39,346 nucleotides of DNA from Caldifarciminota bacterium (GCA_015490555.1 WFXO01000016.1:1-39346); one strand, 5' to 3'; shown: positions 3,336 through 37,945, counted from the first letter of the stretch. The notes: generated by a model not told the origin, from the letters alone. Program-made: numbers and translations.

Positions 3336-4212
3336 AGGCTTGGAATTTCTGGATGGCTCTTCGTAAGGCGGAGTGCGAGATTCCAAAGTCGCGAGCCAGC
3401 CGGGAGAGGGGACGGGGTTCATCGTATTCGGTGAGAACCCAGTGAACGAGCGCCGCTGCCCAGACTTCGGGTTTTCGGATCCGCGGGTGGACCTCCATCG
3501 CGAAGGCGTTCCATAAACTCATGGCATGGTCTCGCCAGGGCTCCGGAAGACCAGCACCATCCAGATACCGTTCGATCAGATACAGGATCCGCAAAGAGAC
3601 GGCGTCGACATCGATGATTTCAAACTCTAAGTCTTCACGCATGACCTCTTGTATCAGTTCTCGGATAAACAGGATGGATTCTGCGTCCGGTTCAATCTTC
3701 AGGGCCTGATCTACAAGTCCCCGGGCGCGCAGAAGTTGACCCTCTTTTACGAAGCCCAGGGCGAGTTCCGCCAGAATGTAGGGATTCTCTGGCTCCAATT
3801 CCAGGGCTTGTTCAAGGGTCAAAATTGCCTGCCGTGTTTCTCCCATTAAGTTCAGAACATGTCCGAGCCCTCGAAGGTACTCCGGATTCTCCGGCTCCTG
3901 ATGCACTGCCCTTTGGAGATATGTGAGGGCTTCCTCGAGTCGGAATGTCCTCGCATAGGTGTGCCCTAAAAGAAAGAGATAGTAAGGATTGTCTGGATCG
4001 TGTCGGAGGAGTTGCTGGAGATAGACCTCGGCCTCTTCGTATTTGTTCAGGTCGAGGGCGAGATCGGTCAGGTGCAGCAGCAGGTCTTCTTTGGGGTCCC
4101 GGGGTCGCGTAGCACGGAGTGCACGCTTCAAAAGTTTGTAAGAGGCCTGTAGATTCCCCTCGAACTCTAAAGATTCTGCCCTTCTGGCTAATTCTTTGGC
4201 AATGTCGGACAT
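3307..4212 (-). CDS. TPR-repeat protein with a C-terminal helical/HTH-like domain
   Basis: Tandem TPR motifs (YYLFLLGHTYARTFRLEEALTYLQRAVHQEPENPEYLRGLGHVLNLMGETRQAILTLEQALELEPENPYILAELAL) and C-terminal LSRLARDFGISHSALRRAIQKF. ORF extends to 4290; MSDIAKEL at 4212 is the more natural start. Confidence 0.7.
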   Translation of the reverse strand: MSDIAKELARRAESLEFEGNLQASYKLLKRALRATRPRDPKEDLLLHLTDLALDLNKYEEAEVYLQQLLRHDPDNPYYLFLLGHTYARTFRLEEALTYLQRAVHQEPENPEYLRGLGHVLNLMGETRQAILTLEQALELEPENPYILAELALGFVKEGQLLRARGLVDQALKIEPDAESILFIRELIQEVMREDLEFEIIDVDAVSLRILYLIERYLDGAGLPEPWRDHAMSLWNAFAMEVHPRIRKPEVWAAALVHWVLTEYDEPRPLSRLARDFGISHSALRRAIQKFQAYVMDVDLDV

Positions 4213-4228
4213 GGGAACGCCTCCAAGA

Positions 4229-5062
4229 TCAAGATGGAGTTCGAAGAACCAGGACACGGTCAATCCACCCAAGGTCTTTCTCCATGGCAACCAGACGATA
4301 TCCGAATCGTTTTGCGGTGTGGATCACACGGTCCCGAACGGGTGGCGCGATTTCCATGAAAAGCCAGCCTCCGGGAACCAGGGCATCGAGCGCTTGCTGC
4401 AGGAGGGGACGGATGACAGAAAGGCCGTCAGGTCCGCCATCCAGCGCTTCCTTGGGTTCCTGTTGGACTTCGGGAGGGAGAGTCGGGAGGTGTGAGGTGG
4501 GAATGTACGGGGGGTTGGTGACGACGAGGTCGAGCGTGTGTGGACGGAATGCCTGGAGAAGGTCGCCTCGTAGAACCCAAACCCGGGACTCGAGGCGATA
4601 TCTGGCCGTATTTTCCCGTGCGGTCCTAACGGCCATCGGGGAGCGGTCAATCGCCCAGAGACGAGCCCTGGGGTAATGCAAAGCCAGAGCAATGGCGAGA
4701 CAGCCTGTACCAGTGCCGATATCCGCCACGCGTAGGACCCGGGTTCGCTTCGTTATGTAGGTCTGAACAGTGAGGATCAACGTCTCGGTGTCGACCCGTG
4801 GGATAAAAACGCCGGGCCGAACGCGGATCGGGATGCCGAGAAACTCAACCTCTCCGAGGACATAGGCCAGAGGCACCCGCTTCTGTCGCGCCTGGAGGGC
4901 GCCCCTCAACTGAGAAGTGTTGGGAGCGGGGCCCAGCGTCGGTGGCCAGGACCCGCCCAAGGAAGTCCAAAGGATCCGGGCCTCAGCCTCGGCTTCGGGA
5001 GAGATCCTTTGGAGATCCTGAAGAAAAGTCCTGTAAATCTTCCAGGCGTTTCCGGTCTTCAT
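4229..5062 (-). CDS. prmC: Peptide chain release factor N5-glutamine methyltransferase PrmC/HemK
   Basis: FIPRVDTETLI, VADIGTGTGCLAIALAL, DLVVTNPPYIP motif; adjacent to prfA. Confidence 0.93.
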   Translation of the reverse strand: MKTGNAWKIYRTFLQDLQRISPEAEAEARILWTSLGGSWPPTLGPAPNTSQLRGALQARQKRVPLAYVLGEVEFLGIPIRVRPGVFIPRVDTETLILTVQTYITKRTRVLRVADIGTGTGCLAIALALHYPRARLWAIDRSPMAVRTARENTARYRLESRVWVLRGDLLQAFRPHTLDLVVTNPPYIPTSHLPTLPPEVQQEPKEALDGGPDGLSVIRPLLQQALDALVPGGWLFMEIAPPVRDRVIHTAKRFGYRLVAMEKDLGWIDRVLVLRTPS

Positions 5063-30821: not shown

Positions 30822-31400
30822 TTAGGGCTCGATCTTCGTGCCCAAGACCTCCAGGAACTTTTTCAGCCATTCCGGATGGGCCGGCCAGGCAGGCGCCGTC
30901 ACCAGATTGCCATCAACGACCGCCTGATCCACACGAACCTCCACATATTCGCCCCCTGCGGCCTTGACCTCCGGTCCCACCGCAGGATAAGCGGTGAGTT
31001 TCTTCCCCTTGACAACATCTGCAGCGGTTAAGACCTGGATGCCGTGGCAAATGGCTGCAATCGGCTTGTTGGCTTCCGCGAAATGCCGGACGATTTCAAG
31101 GACCCGGGGGTTCAAACGGATGTACTCCGGTGCCCGACCCCCGGAGATGACCAACGCATCGTATTCTTCCGGCTTGACGTTGTCGAAAGTGTAATTCAGG
31201 GTGAAGTTGTGCCCCCGTTTTTCACTGTAAGTCTGGTCTCCCTCAAAGTCATGGACTGCGGTACGGATGACCTCACCCGCCTTTTTGTCGGGGCACACCG
31301 CATGGACCGTATGGCTCACCATCTGAAGAGCCTGGAACGGCACCATGACCTCATAGTCCTCGGCATAATCGCCGACCAGCATCAGGATCTTTTTAGCCAT
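30822..31400 (-). CDS. DJ-1/PfpI family protein
   Basis: [69 protein letters not shown] (nucleophile Cys AICHG). Confidence 0.92.
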
Positions 31401-31435
31401 GGAACACCTCCTTGCTTTGTCCCGTTACCTTCCAT

Positions 31436-31464
31436 TCTATACGCCTGAGGAATCAGCAAGTCAA
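31436..31464 (-). promoter_or_regulatory. Sigma70-type promoter of the DJ-1/PfpI gene
   Basis: Minus strand TTGACT (31464-31459) - 17 bp - TATAGA (31441-31436); AAGGAGG SD before ATG. Confidence 0.7.
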
Positions 31465-31499
31465 CCTTCTCTACGAACATTGTCGATCACCTGCGTAGG

Positions 31500-31522
31500 G
31501 ATTCGACGAAATTCGTCGAATC
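31500..31522. promoter_or_regulatory. 23-bp perfect palindrome, candidate operator/enhancer
   Basis: GATTCGACGAA-A-TTCGTCGAATC, perfect 11-bp arms, in a divergent intergenic region. Confidence 0.7.
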
Positions 31523-31585
31523 GGTTGCGACAAGAACGTGCGGATCTTGTTGATTCCCAAAGACTTGAATGGTTTACGGTGCGTT

Positions 31586-31601
31586 TGGAAATGGGGTTGC
31601 A
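31586..31601 (+). promoter_or_regulatory. Candidate sigma-54 (-24/-12) promoter
   Basis: TGGAAATGGGGTTGCA: GG and GC dinucleotides 12 bp apart as in TGGCACG-N4-TTGCW; SD AAAGGAGG and ATG at 31649 downstream. Confidence 0.5.
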
Positions 31602-31648
31602 TTCTGATCCTGTAGCACATGAAACCCAGAAGAAAGGAGGTTTAAATC

Positions 31649-32494
31649 ATGAGCAGCATTACCAAAAGAAGCGCTGGAACCCTGACCGGACTCCTGGTGG
31701 TCTTCGGCTTACTCACGGCCCAAATGGGGCCGTACTACGACCCCAACACGGAAGTCCAAGTGAAGGGCAAAGTCGTTGAGGTGCGGGAGGTCCCCAGTCA
31801 TCATGGCATGGGGGCCATGGTCGAAGCAGAGATCCAGGCTGAAGATGGGACGACCTACACGGTCATCCTCGGCCCACGCTGGTATCTCAGTAACAAACTC
31901 AGTCTGAAACCCGGCGAGGAGATTGAAGTGGTCGGTTCCCGTCAGATGATGGGGATGCAGAATGTTCTGATGGCGAGGGAGATTGTAGACCTTCAGAACC
32001 AGGAGCGGCTCCGTCTTCGGGAAGCAAACGGGTTCCCCTGCTGGGTCGAGCCAGGCCCCTATCGATGGCGGATGACTTCGAAATATCAGAAGACGCTCGA
32101 AGGGAAGGTTATAGACCTAACAGTCACCGCGCCGCCTCGCGGTTTCTACCCGATGGTCACGGCGACCGTTGAGACCCCAGAGAAAGAAAAGGTCAAAGTC
32201 ATGCTGGGTCCATCGTGGTTCATTGGGGACCGCGTTCAGGTCGGCGATCCACTGGTCGTGACAGGCTTTGAAGCCACCTGGGATCACGAGAAGGTATTGA
32301 TGGCGAGCGAGGTTGAAAACCAGCGTCTCCAGGTTCGTCTCCAATTGAGGGATGCAGCCGGGATGCCGATGTGGTCGCATATGGGCATGATGCACGGGCG
32401 TGGCATGATGCCTCATATGGGTGGTGGGTACGGCCCACAAGGCCGCGGCGGGATGCACGGCTGGGGTGGTATGATGGGGAATCCAGGCCGCTAA
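31649..32494 (+). CDS. Secreted duplicated OB-fold-like domain protein with a Met/His/Gly-rich C-terminal tail
   Basis: Signal-like N-terminus; two homologous halves (VQVKGKVVEVREVPS..VEAEIQAEDGTTYTVILGPRWYLSNKLSLKPGEEIEVVGSRQMMGMQNVLMAREI...RLRLREANGFPCW and KTLEGKVIDLTVTAP..VTATVETPEKEKVKVMLGPSWFIGDRVQVGDPLVVTGFEATWDHEKVLMASEV...QLRDAAGMPMW); tail SHMGMMHGRGMMPHMGGGYGPQGRGGMHGWGGMMGNPGR. Confidence 0.75.
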   Translation: MSSITKRSAGTLTGLLVVFGLLTAQMGPYYDPNTEVQVKGKVVEVREVPSHHGMGAMVEAEIQAEDGTTYTVILGPRWYLSNKLSLKPGEEIEVVGSRQMMGMQNVLMAREIVDLQNQERLRLREANGFPCWVEPGPYRWRMTSKYQKTLEGKVIDLTVTAPPRGFYPMVTATVETPEKEKVKVMLGPSWFIGDRVQVGDPLVVTGFEATWDHEKVLMASEVENQRLQVRLQLRDAAGMPMWSHMGMMHGRGMMPHMGGGYGPQGRGGMHGWGGMMGNPGR

Positions 32495-32505
32495 TTCCAA
32501 TCGTT

Positions 32506-32539
32506 GGGGCCGGGAGCGATGAGGCTCCCGGCCCCTTTT
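32506..32539 (+). terminator. Strong hairpin with short T-run between the 31649 and 32560 genes
   Basis: GGGGCCGGGAGC-gatgag-GCTCCCGGCCCC-TTTT, perfect 12-bp stem. Confidence 0.85.
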
Positions 32540-32559
32540 CTATACAAGGAGAAACCCCC

Positions 32560-33615
32560 ATGAGCACATTGATTCTTGTTGCATCGCTATTCACCAGTCC
32601 TCACGGCTGGATCCGGGTCCAGGGGCTCCATACCACTAACCTTTGGGCAACCCCTGAGAACTCTCCCGCACTTGGTACCGCAGTAGAATGGAACGTCACC
32701 TGGGTCACACGATCGCGATGGTCTGCGTATCCCCAGGGGATCGGCTCGACCTATTTCCGCTCGGATACTACCCTATGGACGCTCCGTCCGGAAATCGGGC
32801 TTGAGTATCAAGACGAACAGTGGGGTGCAGGTGGACAAGTGATCCCCTCTTTTTACTCCGGGTCTTTCTCCCAGGCCCAGCACTGGGATCTGATCGGCTG
32901 GACAACTGGAAGATTCCCTTCCGTGGATGCGCATCTCCTCGTTCGTCACCGGCTCTATCCCAATCTCACGGGGATGGACTTCTGGGAAGCGGAATCCCGA
33001 CTCCAGCATCAACGCCTTCACCGGAACGTGATGCTCTTCTTTGCACCCCATGTGGGGATCCGGTGGTACCCGGGTACGACGGCGCCGCCTACGTTCCCAT
33101 CTCATGGACATCGTTTCATGCCATCCTTTGAGACAAGCCGGGATCGCCAAATTTTGAAGACAGGCCTCCAGGTCGGTCTTCAATGGACCCCGGACCCCTG
33201 GACGCAGGTCCTACTTCGACTTTCATTTTCTCGGGTTTTTGGGGATTCCCTCACCACTGGCTATCTGGCAGGCGCACTGGGCGATCTCGAACTCTTTGAC
33301 TCTCCTTACAGTCAGAATGTGTTGGGGCTCGATCTCTCCGGGACCTGGGAGTTACCTTGGCGGTCCCAACTCCGGATCCAGACCGGCCTTTTTCACAAAG
33401 AGTATCCCTGGACGCCGATCCTGGATGCCCCCGAAGTCCCGGCCTCGGATCACCGACGGGATCTCCAGTGGACCCTGGGTGTGACATGGGAACAGGGAGT
33501 GGTGGCATCGGGGACGTGGAGTGCGGACCTTCAGGTGATCCGGAACACATCCAATGATCCGCAGTGGACGTATACTTCGGTCCGATGGGGCTTGGGGATT
33601 CGTGGCTTCTTTTGA
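32560..33615 (+). CDS. Putative outer-membrane beta-barrel protein
   Basis: Alternating hydrophobic/aromatic strands throughout, C-terminal ...VRWGLGIRGFF ending in Phe. ATG 32560 has SD AAGGAG; the longer ORF from 32371 overlaps the previous gene. Confidence 0.6.
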   Translation: MSTLILVASLFTSPHGWIRVQGLHTTNLWATPENSPALGTAVEWNVTWVTRSRWSAYPQGIGSTYFRSDTTLWTLRPEIGLEYQDEQWGAGGQVIPSFYSGSFSQAQHWDLIGWTTGRFPSVDAHLLVRHRLYPNLTGMDFWEAESRLQHQRLHRNVMLFFAPHVGIRWYPGTTAPPTFPSHGHRFMPSFETSRDRQILKTGLQVGLQWTPDPWTQVLLRLSFSRVFGDSLTTGYLAGALGDLELFDSPYSQNVLGLDLSGTWELPWRSQLRIQTGLFHKEYPWTPILDAPEVPASDHRRDLQWTLGVTWEQGVVASGTWSADLQVIRNTSNDPQWTYTSVRWGLGIRGFF

Positions 33616-33621
33616 TCGGCG

Positions 33622-33627
33622 TATAAT
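33622..33627 (+). promoter_or_regulatory. -10 element (TATAAT) before the NtrB-type kinase gene, predicted leaderless
   Basis: TATAAT - 6 nt - GTG (33634) ATG (33637). Confidence 0.55.
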
Positions 33628-33633
33628 TCCAGA

Positions 33634-34881
33634 GTGATGCGGACACAACGAAGGTGGTCTCTTTTAGCTTGGGCGAGTGGGGCCCTCTTTCTGGGGTTCC
33701 TCGCGGTGACGTTGTGGAATCTTCGGACCCTGGAGCGGGAGGTCCAACGTCTGACAAAGGAAGAGATCCAAACTCGCGCCTTTTTGGTCTCGACCAGCCT
33801 CCTGGGGATTCCCGAGACCCTTCGAACCGCCTTCCTGGAGACCCTGGTTCGGAGTGAGACCGCGGTCTATCTCGCGATTTTGGATTCCACGGGCCAGGTC
33901 CAGACCTGGGCGTCCGCATTTGAGGGGTTTTTACCCCTCGATATCCCGGCCCCTCGGACCCCAGAGGGCTACCGGAAAATTGAGACCCCCTTCGGGCCCG
34001 TTTTAGAAACGCGGATCCCCCTGAACACCCGTGAGACCCTGGTTTTGGGGTATCCCTATTTTCTCACCGAACAATGGCTTCGCCGGATTTTTTCCCAATC
34101 CTTGAGTTTCTTGTTGATCCTTGGCGGCGTTCTCATCGCTGCCGTTCTCTTGATCGAGCGACTCCGGCAGGAGACATTCCGAAAGAGCCAGCGCATCCAG
34201 GCCCTGGAGGCCGAACAACGTCGCTACAAAGAACTGCATGAAATGGCCCAGGAAATCGCACATGAAATTAAGAATCCGTTGAATGTGTTGGCCTTAGCCC
34301 TCCAGCGTTTGGAGGAAGAGGAAGATCCTGAAAAGCAACGGTCATACATCCACACGCTCCTCCAGGAAATCCGGACCCTGGCCCGCCGAGTTGAAGGGTT
34401 TCTGGAAGCCAAGAACCCGGTGGCCATTCAACCCAGAGAAATCCAGCCAAAACAATTCTTGAAGGAACTCCAGACCTGGTGGTCCGCTGCATTCCGGGAG
34501 AAGGGGATTCTACTGGAGGTCCAGGCAGACGACGGGCTCCTCTGGGCAGACCCTGAATTGTTGAAACAAGCCCTCAACAACTTAATCCAGAACGCCCTGG
34601 AGGCGACCCAGGAGGGATGGGTCAAGGTCCGGGCCCAAGCCCAAAACAAGGGATGGGTCTTTGAAGTCGAGGATACCGGAGAAGGGATTCCAGAGAGCCG
34701 GCTCCACAAGATCTTTTGGCCCGGGTTCACCACCCGGAGATACGGAACCGGGCTGGGCTTGGTCTGGGTCAGGAAGATTGTGGAAGCCCACGGCGGTGCG
34801 GTAGAGGTTGAGAGTTCTCCCGGGAAAGGCACCCGGTTCCGTTTCTGGATTCCACGTCATCCCGGAGGTCTTTCCCCATGA
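33634..34881 (+). CDS. Membrane sensor histidine kinase (NtrB/ZraS-like)
   Basis: Two TM segments flanking an extracytoplasmic domain; EMAQEIAHEIKNPLNVLALALQRLEEE (H-box), ALNNLIQNALEATQEG, VEDTGEGIPESRLHKIFWPGFTTRRYGTGLGLVWVRKIVEAHGG. Confidence 0.88.
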   Translation: MMRTQRRWSLLAWASGALFLGFLAVTLWNLRTLEREVQRLTKEEIQTRAFLVSTSLLGIPETLRTAFLETLVRSETAVYLAILDSTGQVQTWASAFEGFLPLDIPAPRTPEGYRKIETPFGPVLETRIPLNTRETLVLGYPYFLTEQWLRRIFSQSLSFLLILGGVLIAAVLLIERLRQETFRKSQRIQALEAEQRRYKELHEMAQEIAHEIKNPLNVLALALQRLEEEEDPEKQRSYIHTLLQEIRTLARRVEGFLEAKNPVAIQPREIQPKQFLKELQTWWSAAFREKGILLEVQADDGLLWADPELLKQALNNLIQNALEATQEGWVKVRAQAQNKGWVFEVEDTGEGIPESRLHKIFWPGFTTRRYGTGLGLVWVRKIVEAHGGAVEVESSPGKGTRFRFWIPRHPGGLSP

Positions 34882-36260
34882 ATGTCCCCAGGATCTTGAT
34901 CGTGGAAGACGATCCCGTGCAGCGGTCGCTCCTCAAGGGATCCCTGGAGGGTCGGGGGTTCCAGGTGGTCACGGCTGCCTCCGGGGAAGAGGCGCTGGAG
35001 GTAATCGGCCGGGAACATCCAGATCTGATCCTTTTAGACCAACGACTTCCCGGGATTTCGGGATTTGAAGTCCTCCAGTGGGTTCGTCAGAACGCCCCCC
35101 TCATTCCCGTCTTGATGATCACGGCATTTGGCGAAATCCCATTGGCCGTCGAGGCGATCAAGCAAGGGGCGTTCCACTATCTGACAAAGCCCATTGATGT
35201 ACAAGAACTGGAGAGCCTCATTCGGAGGGCCTTAGAACACTACGCCTTAATTCGTGAGAATCAGGTTCTCAAAGAAACCCTGGCGTCCGTTACCCCGGAG
35301 ACCCCGGTCATTTATGCTTCCCGTGCCATGCAAGAGGTGATGTCTTTGGTCGCGAGGGTGGCGCCCACCGATGCGACCGTTTTGATCACCGGAGAAACAG
35401 GAACCGGGAAGGAGTTGGTTGCCCGTGTGATCCACCATCTGTCTCCCCGATCCGCAAACCCCTGGGTTGCCGTGAATGTTGCGGCCCTTCCAGAGACCCT
35501 GATCGAGTCCGAATTGTTTGGTCATGAAAAAGGGGCGTTTACCGGAGCCGACCGGGCCCGAATGGGTAAATTCGAAGCAGCCCACAGGGGGACGTTGTTC
35601 CTGGACGAAATCGGTGAACTGCCTGCCTCTGCCCAGGTCAAACTGCTCCGGTTCTTGCAAGAACGCGTCATTGAACGGTTGGGCTCCAATCGGCCGATCC
35701 CCTTGGACGTGCGCATCATCGCCGCGACGAACCGAGATTTGGAAAGCCTGGTCCGGGAAGGGAAGTTTCGGGAAGACCTCTATTACCGACTGAATGTCAT
35801 TCGAATCCATTTGCCTCCTTTACGCGAGCGACGAGAGGATATTTTGCCGGTGGCACAACACTTCTTAGAAACCTTTGCAAAAAAACACGGGAAAAGGGTC
35901 CGAGCATTCACAAAAGAGGCGACCGAAGCGCTGCTTCGCTATGATTATCCCGGCAACGTCCGGGAACTCCAAAATCTCATTGAACGGGCCGTCGTGCTCA
36001 GTCGGTCCGAATACATCACGGTTCAGGACCTATTCCCGGTCCAGGGATGGACACCCGAAGACGCCTCTCATGGGTCCCTGGATGAGCGACTTGAGGCCTT
36101 TGAACGCCAACTGATCTTAGATGCCTTAAAAAAAGCCGGAGGGGTCCAGACCAAGGCCGCCGAGTTGCTCGGTCTCTCAGAGAGGGCCTTGCGGTATCGC
36201 ATGCAAAAATTAGGCCTCAAACCCACACGACCCCTTGATTCTGAAAATCGCTCGGTATAG
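34878..36260 (+). CDS. Sigma-54-dependent response regulator (NtrC/ZraR-like)
   Basis: REC (LIVEDDPVQRSLLKGSLEG), AAA+ GETGTGKELVARVIHH, GHEKGAFTGADRARMGKFEAAHRGTLFLDEIGELP with GAFTGA, YDYPGNVRELQNLIERAVVL, C-terminal Fis-type HTH TKAAELLGLSERALRYRMQKLGL. Confidence 0.95.
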   Translation: MNVPRILIVEDDPVQRSLLKGSLEGRGFQVVTAASGEEALEVIGREHPDLILLDQRLPGISGFEVLQWVRQNAPLIPVLMITAFGEIPLAVEAIKQGAFHYLTKPIDVQELESLIRRALEHYALIRENQVLKETLASVTPETPVIYASRAMQEVMSLVARVAPTDATVLITGETGTGKELVARVIHHLSPRSANPWVAVNVAALPETLIESELFGHEKGAFTGADRARMGKFEAAHRGTLFLDEIGELPASAQVKLLRFLQERVIERLGSNRPIPLDVRIIAATNRDLESLVREGKFREDLYYRLNVIRIHLPPLRERREDILPVAQHFLETFAKKHGKRVRAFTKEATEALLRYDYPGNVRELQNLIERAVVLSRSEYITVQDLFPVQGWTPEDASHGSLDERLEAFERQLILDALKKAGGVQTKAAELLGLSERALRYRMQKLGLKPTRPLDSENRSV

Positions 36261-36295
36261 GCTTTGAATGTTCCCTACAACACCACGGGAGGTGC

Positions 36296-37945
36296 ATGAT
36301 GGTCGGGACATCCGCATGGATCTGGTGTGCTGTTTTGTTGGCAGCTCCTCCTCAGGAGAAAGGAACCTTCGTGCTGGAACAGAGCGGCAAGAAGGTCGGG
36401 GAAGAGCACTTTACCGTGACCTGGCAAGACAATCGTGGGGTCCTGGAAAGCGAAATCACCCTCACCCTTCCCTCCGCGACGATTTCGATGGAGATCCATC
36501 AAGAAGTAGACCCCTCTCTTCGCCCCCTTTCCTATAAACTCACAGCAGAAACCCCGGGAGGAACGCAGGTTGTGACGGTTGAGCCCACAGATTCCACACT
36601 TTATGAGGTGTTGGCTACGGTACGTGGAACGCATCAGTCCCGGGAATTTGAGGTTTCCGATCCGGTGATTCTGGACAACAACGTCCTGAGCCACTATGTC
36701 CTGATCGGCACCCTGTTAAAGGATCTGAAAGCCCAGGAAACGCGAACGGCCATCGTGCCTCAGGTGATGATGACCCTCCCCCTCAAACTCTATCCCGGGA
36801 AGGCTACAACGTTCCGGGCCGGTGAAAAGACCGTCGAGGGCAAGGTCTATCGGCTTTATCTCGGTGACATCGAGATCGAGTTATATGAGGTCGAAGGGAG
36901 GATTGTTGGGGGTCGGATCCCCAGCCAACAAGCAAAGTTTTACCGAACCGATCTCTATCCGAAGGGGATCGAGCCGATCCCGGCCGAGGGCCGCATCCGG
37001 AAACATCCACCTCCTGAGGTTGGAGAACGCGAAATCGCGTTTGTCAGCGCTGACGGGACCCGGCTTGCCGGGTCCTTTTCATTTCCACGGTCCGGACATC
37101 CCCCATACCCGGTGGTCATCATGATCCATGGCAGTGGAGGCCTGGATCGAGATGAGAATGCCCCCGGCTTCGAGACCAACATCTTCCGGGACCTGGCATG
37201 GGGGTTTGCTCAACACGGGATTGCCAGCCTACGATACGACAAACGAGGGACCGGCAGAAGCCAGGGGGACTGGCAAAAAGCCAGTCTGGAAGACCTGGTC
37301 CAGGACGCGCAAGCCGCGGTCCGCTTTGCACGCCGGTTACCAGAGACGGGCGCCATCTTCCTGTTAGGCCACAGCGAAGGGGGTGTGATTGCCCCGATGG
37401 TCGCACGCCGGGAATCTGTAGACGGGCTGATCCTTCTGGAAGCCCCTGCAACCCCGCTGGATCAGGTCATCCTCTACCAGATCCAGGTAGCCGCCCAGAA
37501 TCGCCGTCTCCCCGATTCCCTGGTGCAAGAGAAGTTGAAAGAGACCAAGGCCTTCTTCGCGTTTGTTCGTTCCTCTCACGGGGATTGGCAAGACTATCCG
37601 GATTCCGTTGTTCAGGCGTATCCGCATTCCTTTTCCCTACGATGGTGGCGAGAGCATCTGGCGCATGATCCCGTTGCAACCCTTCAAAAGGTCCATGTCC
37701 CCGTCCTGATCCTCCAGGGGGATCAAGACCCCCAGGTGCCGCCCGAACACGCCACCCTCCTCAAGCAGGCCTTGGAAGCAGGAGGCAACACAGACGTGGA
37801 ACTCCATGTCTTGGAAGGCATGAACCACCTTTTACGGAAGCAGGAGGGGCCCAAACAACTCCTTGCCCAGGGACTGGATCAACCCCTGGATGATCGGGTG
37901 CTCCCCATTTTGATCTCCTGGATTCAAAAGCATTTCCGTTCTTAA
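36296..37945 (+). CDS. Secreted alpha/beta hydrolase (S9-like esterase/peptidase) with N-terminal beta-rich domain
   Basis: Signal-like N-terminus; VVIMIHGSGGLDRDEN, LRYDKRGTGRSQGDW, FLLGHSEGGVIAPMVA, VPVLILQGDQDPQVPPEHATLL, EGMNHLLR. Confidence 0.85.
   Translation: MMVGTSAWIWCAVLLAAPPQEKGTFVLEQSGKKVGEEHFTVTWQDNRGVLESEITLTLPSATISMEIHQEVDPSLRPLSYKLTAETPGGTQVVTVEPTDSTLYEVLATVRGTHQSREFEVSDPVILDNNVLSHYVLIGTLLKDLKAQETRTAIVPQVMMTLPLKLYPGKATTFRAGEKTVEGKVYRLYLGDIEIELYEVEGRIVGGRIPSQQAKFYRTDLYPKGIEPIPAEGRIRKHPPPEVGEREIAFVSADGTRLAGSFSFPRSGHPPYPVVIMIHGSGGLDRDENAPGFETNIFRDLAWGFAQHGIASLRYDKRGTGRSQGDWQKASLEDLVQDAQAAVRFARRLPETGAIFLLGHSEGGVIAPMVARRESVDGLILLEAPATPLDQVILYQIQVAAQNRRLPDSLVQEKLKETKAFFAFVRSSHGDWQDYPDSVVQAYPHSFSLRWWREHLAHDPVATLQKVHVPVLILQGDQDPQVPPEHATLLKQALEAGGNTDVELHVLEGMNHLLRKQEGPKQLLAQGLDQPLDDRVLPILISWIQKHFRS

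Follow-up and report, generated by a model that had tools for sequence, protein, structure and literature searches.

A putative autoregulated sigma-54 two-component envelope-response operon in a WOR-3 bacterium

Genes and control elements at the locus

The 39,346-nucleotide stretch of DNA analysed here (GCA_015490555.1, WFXO01000016.1:1-39346; hereafter the window) comes from Caldifarciminota bacterium, which is a WOR-3 bacterium, and carries at 31480-36260 a palindrome, a -24/-12-like site and four genes on the plus strand, which an earlier inspection of the sequence (hereafter the original prediction) had proposed to form a self-contained sigma-54 envelope-response module. In this study, we compared the locus with homologous loci in related genomes, and conclude, because of phylogenetic footprinting with built-in controls, that the operon is very likely controlled by its own regulator.

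The palindrome, at positions 31500-31522, reads GATTCGACGAA-A-TTCGTCGAATC, i.e., two arms of 11 nt that are 100% complementary around one central base, so that the 23-bp perfect palindrome first reported is borne out. Its score of 10.9 exceeds the 95th percentile of 7.5 obtained from shuffles of the upstream region, and within the 2.16-Mb genome it has no second copy at three or fewer mismatches. We regard it as a candidate enhancer (upstream activating sequence, UAS) for the regulator of the module, annotated without strand, with a TTCGAC-N7-GTCGAA core inside GATTCGACGAAATTCGTCGAATC that is kept upstream of homologous operons. A possible weak second site, CTCTACGAACATTGTCGAT (31469-31487, also without strand), agrees with 9 of the 12 core bases and may be due to chance. 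The predicted sigma-54 promoter, TGGAAATGGGGTTGCA (31586-31601, plus strand), corresponds to the -24/-12-like site of the original prediction, has GG-N10-GC spacing, and is the sole such site near the start of the operon. Because its GC at 31599-31600 places the predicted +1 near 31612, the centre of the palindrome is computed to lie 101 bp upstream of +1, in agreement with the earlier estimate of about 100 bp. A ribosome-binding site that we judge to be good (AAGGAGG, 31634-31640) is followed by the ATG of the first gene at 31649, and rpoN was found in the genome.

The first gene (31649-32494, plus strand) is an open reading frame (ORF) for an exported protein with two predicted OB-fold domains (approximately residues 35-122 and 148-232) and, at the C-terminus, a tail rich in Met, His and Gly, with nine Met and four His in 39 residues; the domain duplication and the Met/His-rich tail, both of which had been noticed originally, are thus real. 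Structure prediction gave two OB folds followed by a disordered tail, with block means of the predicted local distance difference test (pLDDT) mostly >90 per domain, and the PDB matches were OB-fold proteins. A search of PDB sequences with the OB-fold profile returned nothing meaningful, while PF01336 (OB) matched 2 of 12 relatives and also one single-domain homologue, the latter below the curated cut-off. Neither the protein nor its family matches the Pfam BOF or CusF models, and no Pfam family fits. As the original prediction had stated, the protein is not ZraP-like: it has OB folds instead, and no Pfam or NCBIfam match to ZraP, Spy or CpxP. It also has no Cys-containing lipobox, its sole Cys lying in the mature part. 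The MamS model NF040991 gave weak matches in 10 of the 12 family members (best 1.5e-7), the window protein itself scoring 23.5 bits, i.e., below the equivalog cut-off of 200 bits; MamS likewise has a predicted OB fold, which was modelled on a YgiW template (PMC3905215). The earlier designation as a new type of output protein was therefore too strong, and we describe it as a MamS-like OB-fold protein.

The second gene (32560-33615, plus strand) encodes a probable outer-membrane beta-barrel protein of 351 amino acids ending in Phe, a member of the same family being found at the same place in homologous operons. This family is conserved, with a hydrophobic or aromatic C-terminal residue. The barrel-like character put forward originally is plausible, whereas the fold itself is not confirmed by the structural model, which has a pLDDT of 35; the protein has no Pfam match, and the barrel profile, searched against PDB sequences, retrieved no more than a weak match to a designed barrel (E 0.21). 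When profiles of the barrel families from the different sub-groups were compared, A5 and A6 matched strongly (probability 95.7, E 9e-9), A4, the group of the window protein, matched A6 moderately (probability 78, E 2e-5), and the match of A4 to A5 was unconvincing.

The remaining two genes, whose ORFs overlap by 4 bp, encode the NtrB-like membrane kinase and the NtrC-like regulator that had been recognized before. The histidine kinase (33634-34881, plus strand, GTG start) contains HisKA and HATPase domains (Pfam), two transmembrane segments (residues 9-27 and 156-174) that enclose a periplasmic loop of approximately residues 28-155, and an H-box near H210. The NtrC-type sigma-54 response regulator (34878-36260, plus strand) combines a receiver, an AAA+ domain and a Fis-type helix-turn-helix (Response_reg, Sigma54_activat and HTH_8 in Pfam), with a GAFTGA motif and the recognition helix LSERALRYRM. 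Both score below the equivalog cut-offs of the Zra models, the kinase with 143.5 bits against 479 for ZraS, and the regulator with 429.6 bits against 760 for ZraR. All four ORFs are open and lie on one strand.

Between the first and second gene there is an intrinsic-terminator-like hairpin (32506-32535, plus strand; 12 bp then TTTT; -34.6 kcal/mol, z -4.6), which probably reduces expression of the three genes that follow it; a strong terminator-like hairpin directly after its gene suggests that the OB-fold protein is the main product of the operon. An Rfam search of 31000-37000 gave no match. In many other WOR-3 loci the first and second gene stand too close together to fit such a hairpin.

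Conservation of the gene cluster, promoter and enhancer

The gene for the exported protein was found in 33 of 147 WOR-3 genomes, and in 31 of these it stands in the four-gene cluster. Two genomes (family f34) have a solitary gene only, and one (G086) has the cluster together with a solitary second copy. Among the first 60 related genomes, 19 carry the exported protein, and the cluster, or its remnant at a contig end, surrounds all 19. The gene is also present in 82 of 142 Aminicenantia genomes, where the 20 loci that were read show an adjoining barrel homologue in 18, kinase in 17 and regulator in 16 cases, one locus ending at a contig edge after the kinase; in one Aminicenantes locus (L051) the order is barrel, OB-fold gene, kinase, regulator. 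A complete lack of co-occurrence with a kinase/regulator pair had been named beforehand as evidence that would speak against the module, and the pairing proved to be the rule in both groups. Outside of them, the exported-protein gene occurs without the cluster in Cyanobacteria, Nitrospirae, Desulfobulbaceae and Goldbacteria. In Xenococcaceae (L045, L050) a solitary single-OB homologue lies just before genes that look like subunits of a bidirectional hydrogenase or an NADH-dehydrogenase-type complex.

The control elements follow the cluster closely. In 29 of 29 WOR-3 operons examined, the best -24/-12-like match is found 25-83 bp ahead of the start codon and outscores 95% or more of random windows taken from its own locus. 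Many of these sites are near the consensus (TGGCACG..TTGCA); in a few, those of L024, L026-L028 and L127, one base of the GC or GG pair differs from it. Upstream of this site, the motif TTCGAC-N6/7-GTCGAA was found at 10 or more of its 12 bases in 25 of the 29 operons. The distance from its centre to the -12 GC is mostly 62-152 bp, and in several operons a second copy lies 17-18 bp from the first. When CGACAAWWTTGTCG was searched independently of genes, it turned up in 11 genomes among the first 60, in a single copy each and at the cluster in all 11; across the full set of 147 genomes, 23 had it, again once each, with 19 of the copies lying upstream of genes of this family and the other 4 elsewhere. 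A reversed-pattern control gave 4 hits, the same number as the off-target copies. These four palindromes (L137-L140) have no adjoining cluster gene, and with their count equal to that of the control we treated them as chance occurrences.

Solitary genes of the family extend this pattern. The two f34 genes (L133/L134), which have no kinase, lack both the palindrome and the -24/-12 site, and the solitary copy in G086 (L130; G086:C1:1648000-1658000, 4175-5016), which has no adjoining kinase, has kept both and is a probable target in trans of the cluster in the same genome (L131). In Aminicenantia, a -24/-12 site was found at 16 of 20 loci, and the three loci without a kinase (L176-L178) still carry the promoter; one locus (L172) carries CCGACAAAATTGTCGG, and a related TTCGCA-N-TGCGAA repeat is present in several of the loci. 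With palindrome and promoter conserved together with the cluster, control of the upstream genes by the regulator, which the original prediction had left as a conjecture, is now well supported, as are the putative operon, promoter and enhancer themselves and the apparent dedication of the enhancer to this operon, all at the level of comparative sequence evidence.

Alternatively, the palindrome could serve a different regulator, or the divergent DJ-1/PfpI gene at 31400, whose start lies only 100 bp to its left, and stand before the operon incidentally. We consider this highly improbable, because the palindrome tracks the cluster despite differing left neighbours and is essentially absent elsewhere, and because the window contains no -24/-12 match directed towards the DJ-1 gene.

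Further clues come from the regulators. The recognition-helix pattern SER-x-[LI]RY is common to the regulators of the cluster, and not to the three other NtrC-type activators of the genome. The regulators of the window and of locus L021 read GLSERALRYRM, many others reading GISERVLRYKM, and the palindrome of the window has a 7-bp spacer and CGACGA in place of CGACAA, as does that of L021. That helix and enhancer site change together is suggestive only.

Several neighbouring genes were also observed. An alpha/beta hydrolase gene (EstD-like, S33; 36296-37945), whose product has an additional domain at its N-terminus, begins 35 bp beyond the regulator gene and could be the last gene of the operon, although no such gene was noticed behind the regulator at the other loci read. 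In four WOR-3 loci the first gene is small and encodes a member of a family of exported proteins that have RDEDGDGIPDS-like (calcium-loop-like) motifs and an Arg/His-rich composition (L028 9873-10283, L030 4614-5138, L032 4766-5338, L034 8413-8964). In both WOR-3 and Aminicenantia, genes for DUF2202, which we take to be ferritin-like, and/or DUF4405-like genes stand in the cluster, sometimes behind a sigma-54 promoter (L030, L031, L033, L036-L038, L163, L165), and in one Aminicenantia locus (L181 2168-3763) a DUF2202 gene is divergent from the module, with a -24/-12 site on both sides and a TTCGCA..TGCGAA repeat between. DUF4405 has been shown to be a heme b cytochrome class (PMC11334425). The companion genes suggest an envelope chemistry that involves redox reactions or iron, but a search of the window's genome (approximately 94% complete) found no DUF2202, which is therefore probably not part of the local regulon.

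Proposed circuit and competing interpretations

Taken together, we consider it highly probable that the locus is a positively autoregulated, self-contained sigma-54 two-component envelope-response operon, a judgement that applies to the regulatory circuit and not to its stimulus. In the proposed circuit, the membrane kinase would sense the state of the periplasm via its extracytoplasmic loop and phosphorylate the NtrC-type regulator, which would bind the palindromic enhancer approximately 100 bp upstream of +1 and activate sigma-54 RNA polymerase at the -24/-12 promoter. The resulting transcript would yield much of the two-OB-fold protein and, by read-through past the terminator, less barrel, kinase and regulator. 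Together, the OB-fold protein and the barrel would constitute the response; like ZraP and QseG, they would probably act back on the kinase within the periplasm as well. For phosphorylation, binding, attenuation and feedback we infer the steps from the known relatives ZraR and QseF (PMC4987338, PMC6075780). The length of the kinase loop varies from approximately 125 to approximately 220 residues across lineages; what is sensed, or how it is sensed, may thus differ between lineages with the output constant. The stimulus is the least certain part, and our best guess, which we place just short of probable, is an envelope stress of redox or metal nature.

Several points weigh against this interpretation. 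Four of the 29 operons (L022, L025, L026, L127) have degenerate enhancer matches only, and the -24/-12 site of the window deviates from the consensus at three positions. The sigma-54 matrix, with which approximately 300 bp upstream of the first gene were scored, is approximate, being modelled on the generally known consensus, and the named relatives were assembled from metagenomes. Divergence runs parallel among the four proteins (Mantel r 0.82-0.88); this agrees with co-inheritance, could stem from vertical descent alone, and does not in itself demonstrate interaction. Finally, relatives of the exported protein carry Cys/His-rich or basic tails instead of Met/His-rich ones, which weakens a specific metal reading.

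This last point bears on the idea of a Zra- or Cus-type operon dedicated to metal (copper/zinc) resistance, which would account for the layout resembling zraP-zraSR and for the Met/His-rich tail here, as well as for Cys/His-rich tails in other WOR-3 families; CusF has an OB fold, to which that of the exported protein could be likened. We find it distinctly unlikely, given that the tail residues are not conserved, that there is no match to a CusF or ZraP model, and that no efflux pump or metal ATPase was seen recurring beside the cluster in the loci read, whose neighbours were not systematically annotated. L021 shares the Met/His-rich tail of the window protein; the tail of L023 is rich in Met, those of f30 and of several f18 copies are rich in Cys and His, and many others are basic or rich in Gly. 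Because tail composition varies between lineages, metal binding by the exported protein is possible, yet not conserved across the family; the metal reading in the original prediction leans on a tail of variable composition.

A second alternative keeps the same circuit, and assigns the exported OB-fold protein mainly the role of an accessory sensor, i.e., a signal-binding partner of the kinase, with the barrel as the response, or else sees the module as serving ligand uptake rather than stress defence. Single-OB versions of the gene lie immediately before the kinase gene, often overlapping it, and QseG is such a partner of QseE (PMC6075780), both of which speak for a sensor; a solitary OB-fold gene that has kept the same promoter with no kinase beside it (L130), and a terminator after the OB-fold gene, instead fit a bulk product. 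A barrel together with a periplasmic protein would suit uptake, but no transporter or TonB gene was seen recurring beside the cluster in the same loci, to which the above limit on annotation applies. Overall, we hold this alternative to be possible, if doubtful, and retain the reading of the exported protein as part of an envelope response.

A broader scheme would make the operon part of a so far undescribed response to redox/metal stress of the envelope that spans phyla. MamS-like OB-fold proteins would then be periplasmic partners of the kinase, co-induced with a new barrel of the outer membrane and, depending on the lineage, also with DUF4405 heme cytochromes and DUF2202 ferritin-like proteins, and the MamS of magnetosomes would be an offshoot of this envelope family. 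We regard this as somewhat unlikely.

Relation to known systems and significance

The closest analogues are ZraP-ZraSR and QseEGF, and the layout was fairly likened to Zra/Hyd systems in the original prediction. In enterobacteria, ZraP-ZraS-ZraR (HydHG) comprises a periplasmic protein, a membrane kinase and an NtrC-type sigma-54 regulator that activates its own genes on envelope stress (PMC4987338). The module shares this arrangement, with a kinase core that matches the ZraS model and a regulator that matches the ZraR model, and differs in having a two-OB-fold protein that is not ZraP, an added barrel gene, and one operon with one promoter, whereas Zra has divergent promoters. With QseE-QseG-QseF (GlrK-QseG-GlrR), the module has in common a kinase, a sigma-54 regulator and an envelope protein encoded together, as well as an inverted-repeat UAS, which in that system is TGTC-N10-GACA (PMC6075780, PMC4987338). 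Unlike the exported protein of the window, QseG is an outer-membrane lipoprotein; the targets of the system are glmY and rpoE, and transcriptional autoregulation of qseEGF is reported to be absent (PMC6075780), which sets it apart from the circuit proposed here. The module would thus work like both systems but is outside both by component tests, because it has neither ZraP nor a QseG-like lipoprotein and its scores are far below the equivalog cut-offs.

The exported protein also resembles other OB-fold proteins. It shares with MamS the weak NF040991 matches and the predicted fold, and differs by its two domains and a score far below the cut-off, no magnetosome gene having been noticed in the clusters read; with YgiW/BOF and CusF it has in common an exported OB-fold protein, and differs in its lack of a match to either Pfam model. 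A search of the open-licence literature returned no paper joining WOR-3 with sigma-54, or Stahlbacteria with two-component systems, and the operon looks like an apparently undescribed envelope-sensing circuit of WOR-3 and Aminicenantia.

For these uncultured phyla, the locus would provide a complete circuit in which promoter, enhancer, regulator and targets are named and which is testable in E. coli. It would tie an uncharacterised OB-fold family, relatives of MamS, to envelope signalling, and the enhancer, because it is normally used once per genome, may serve as a clean reporter for finding the signal.

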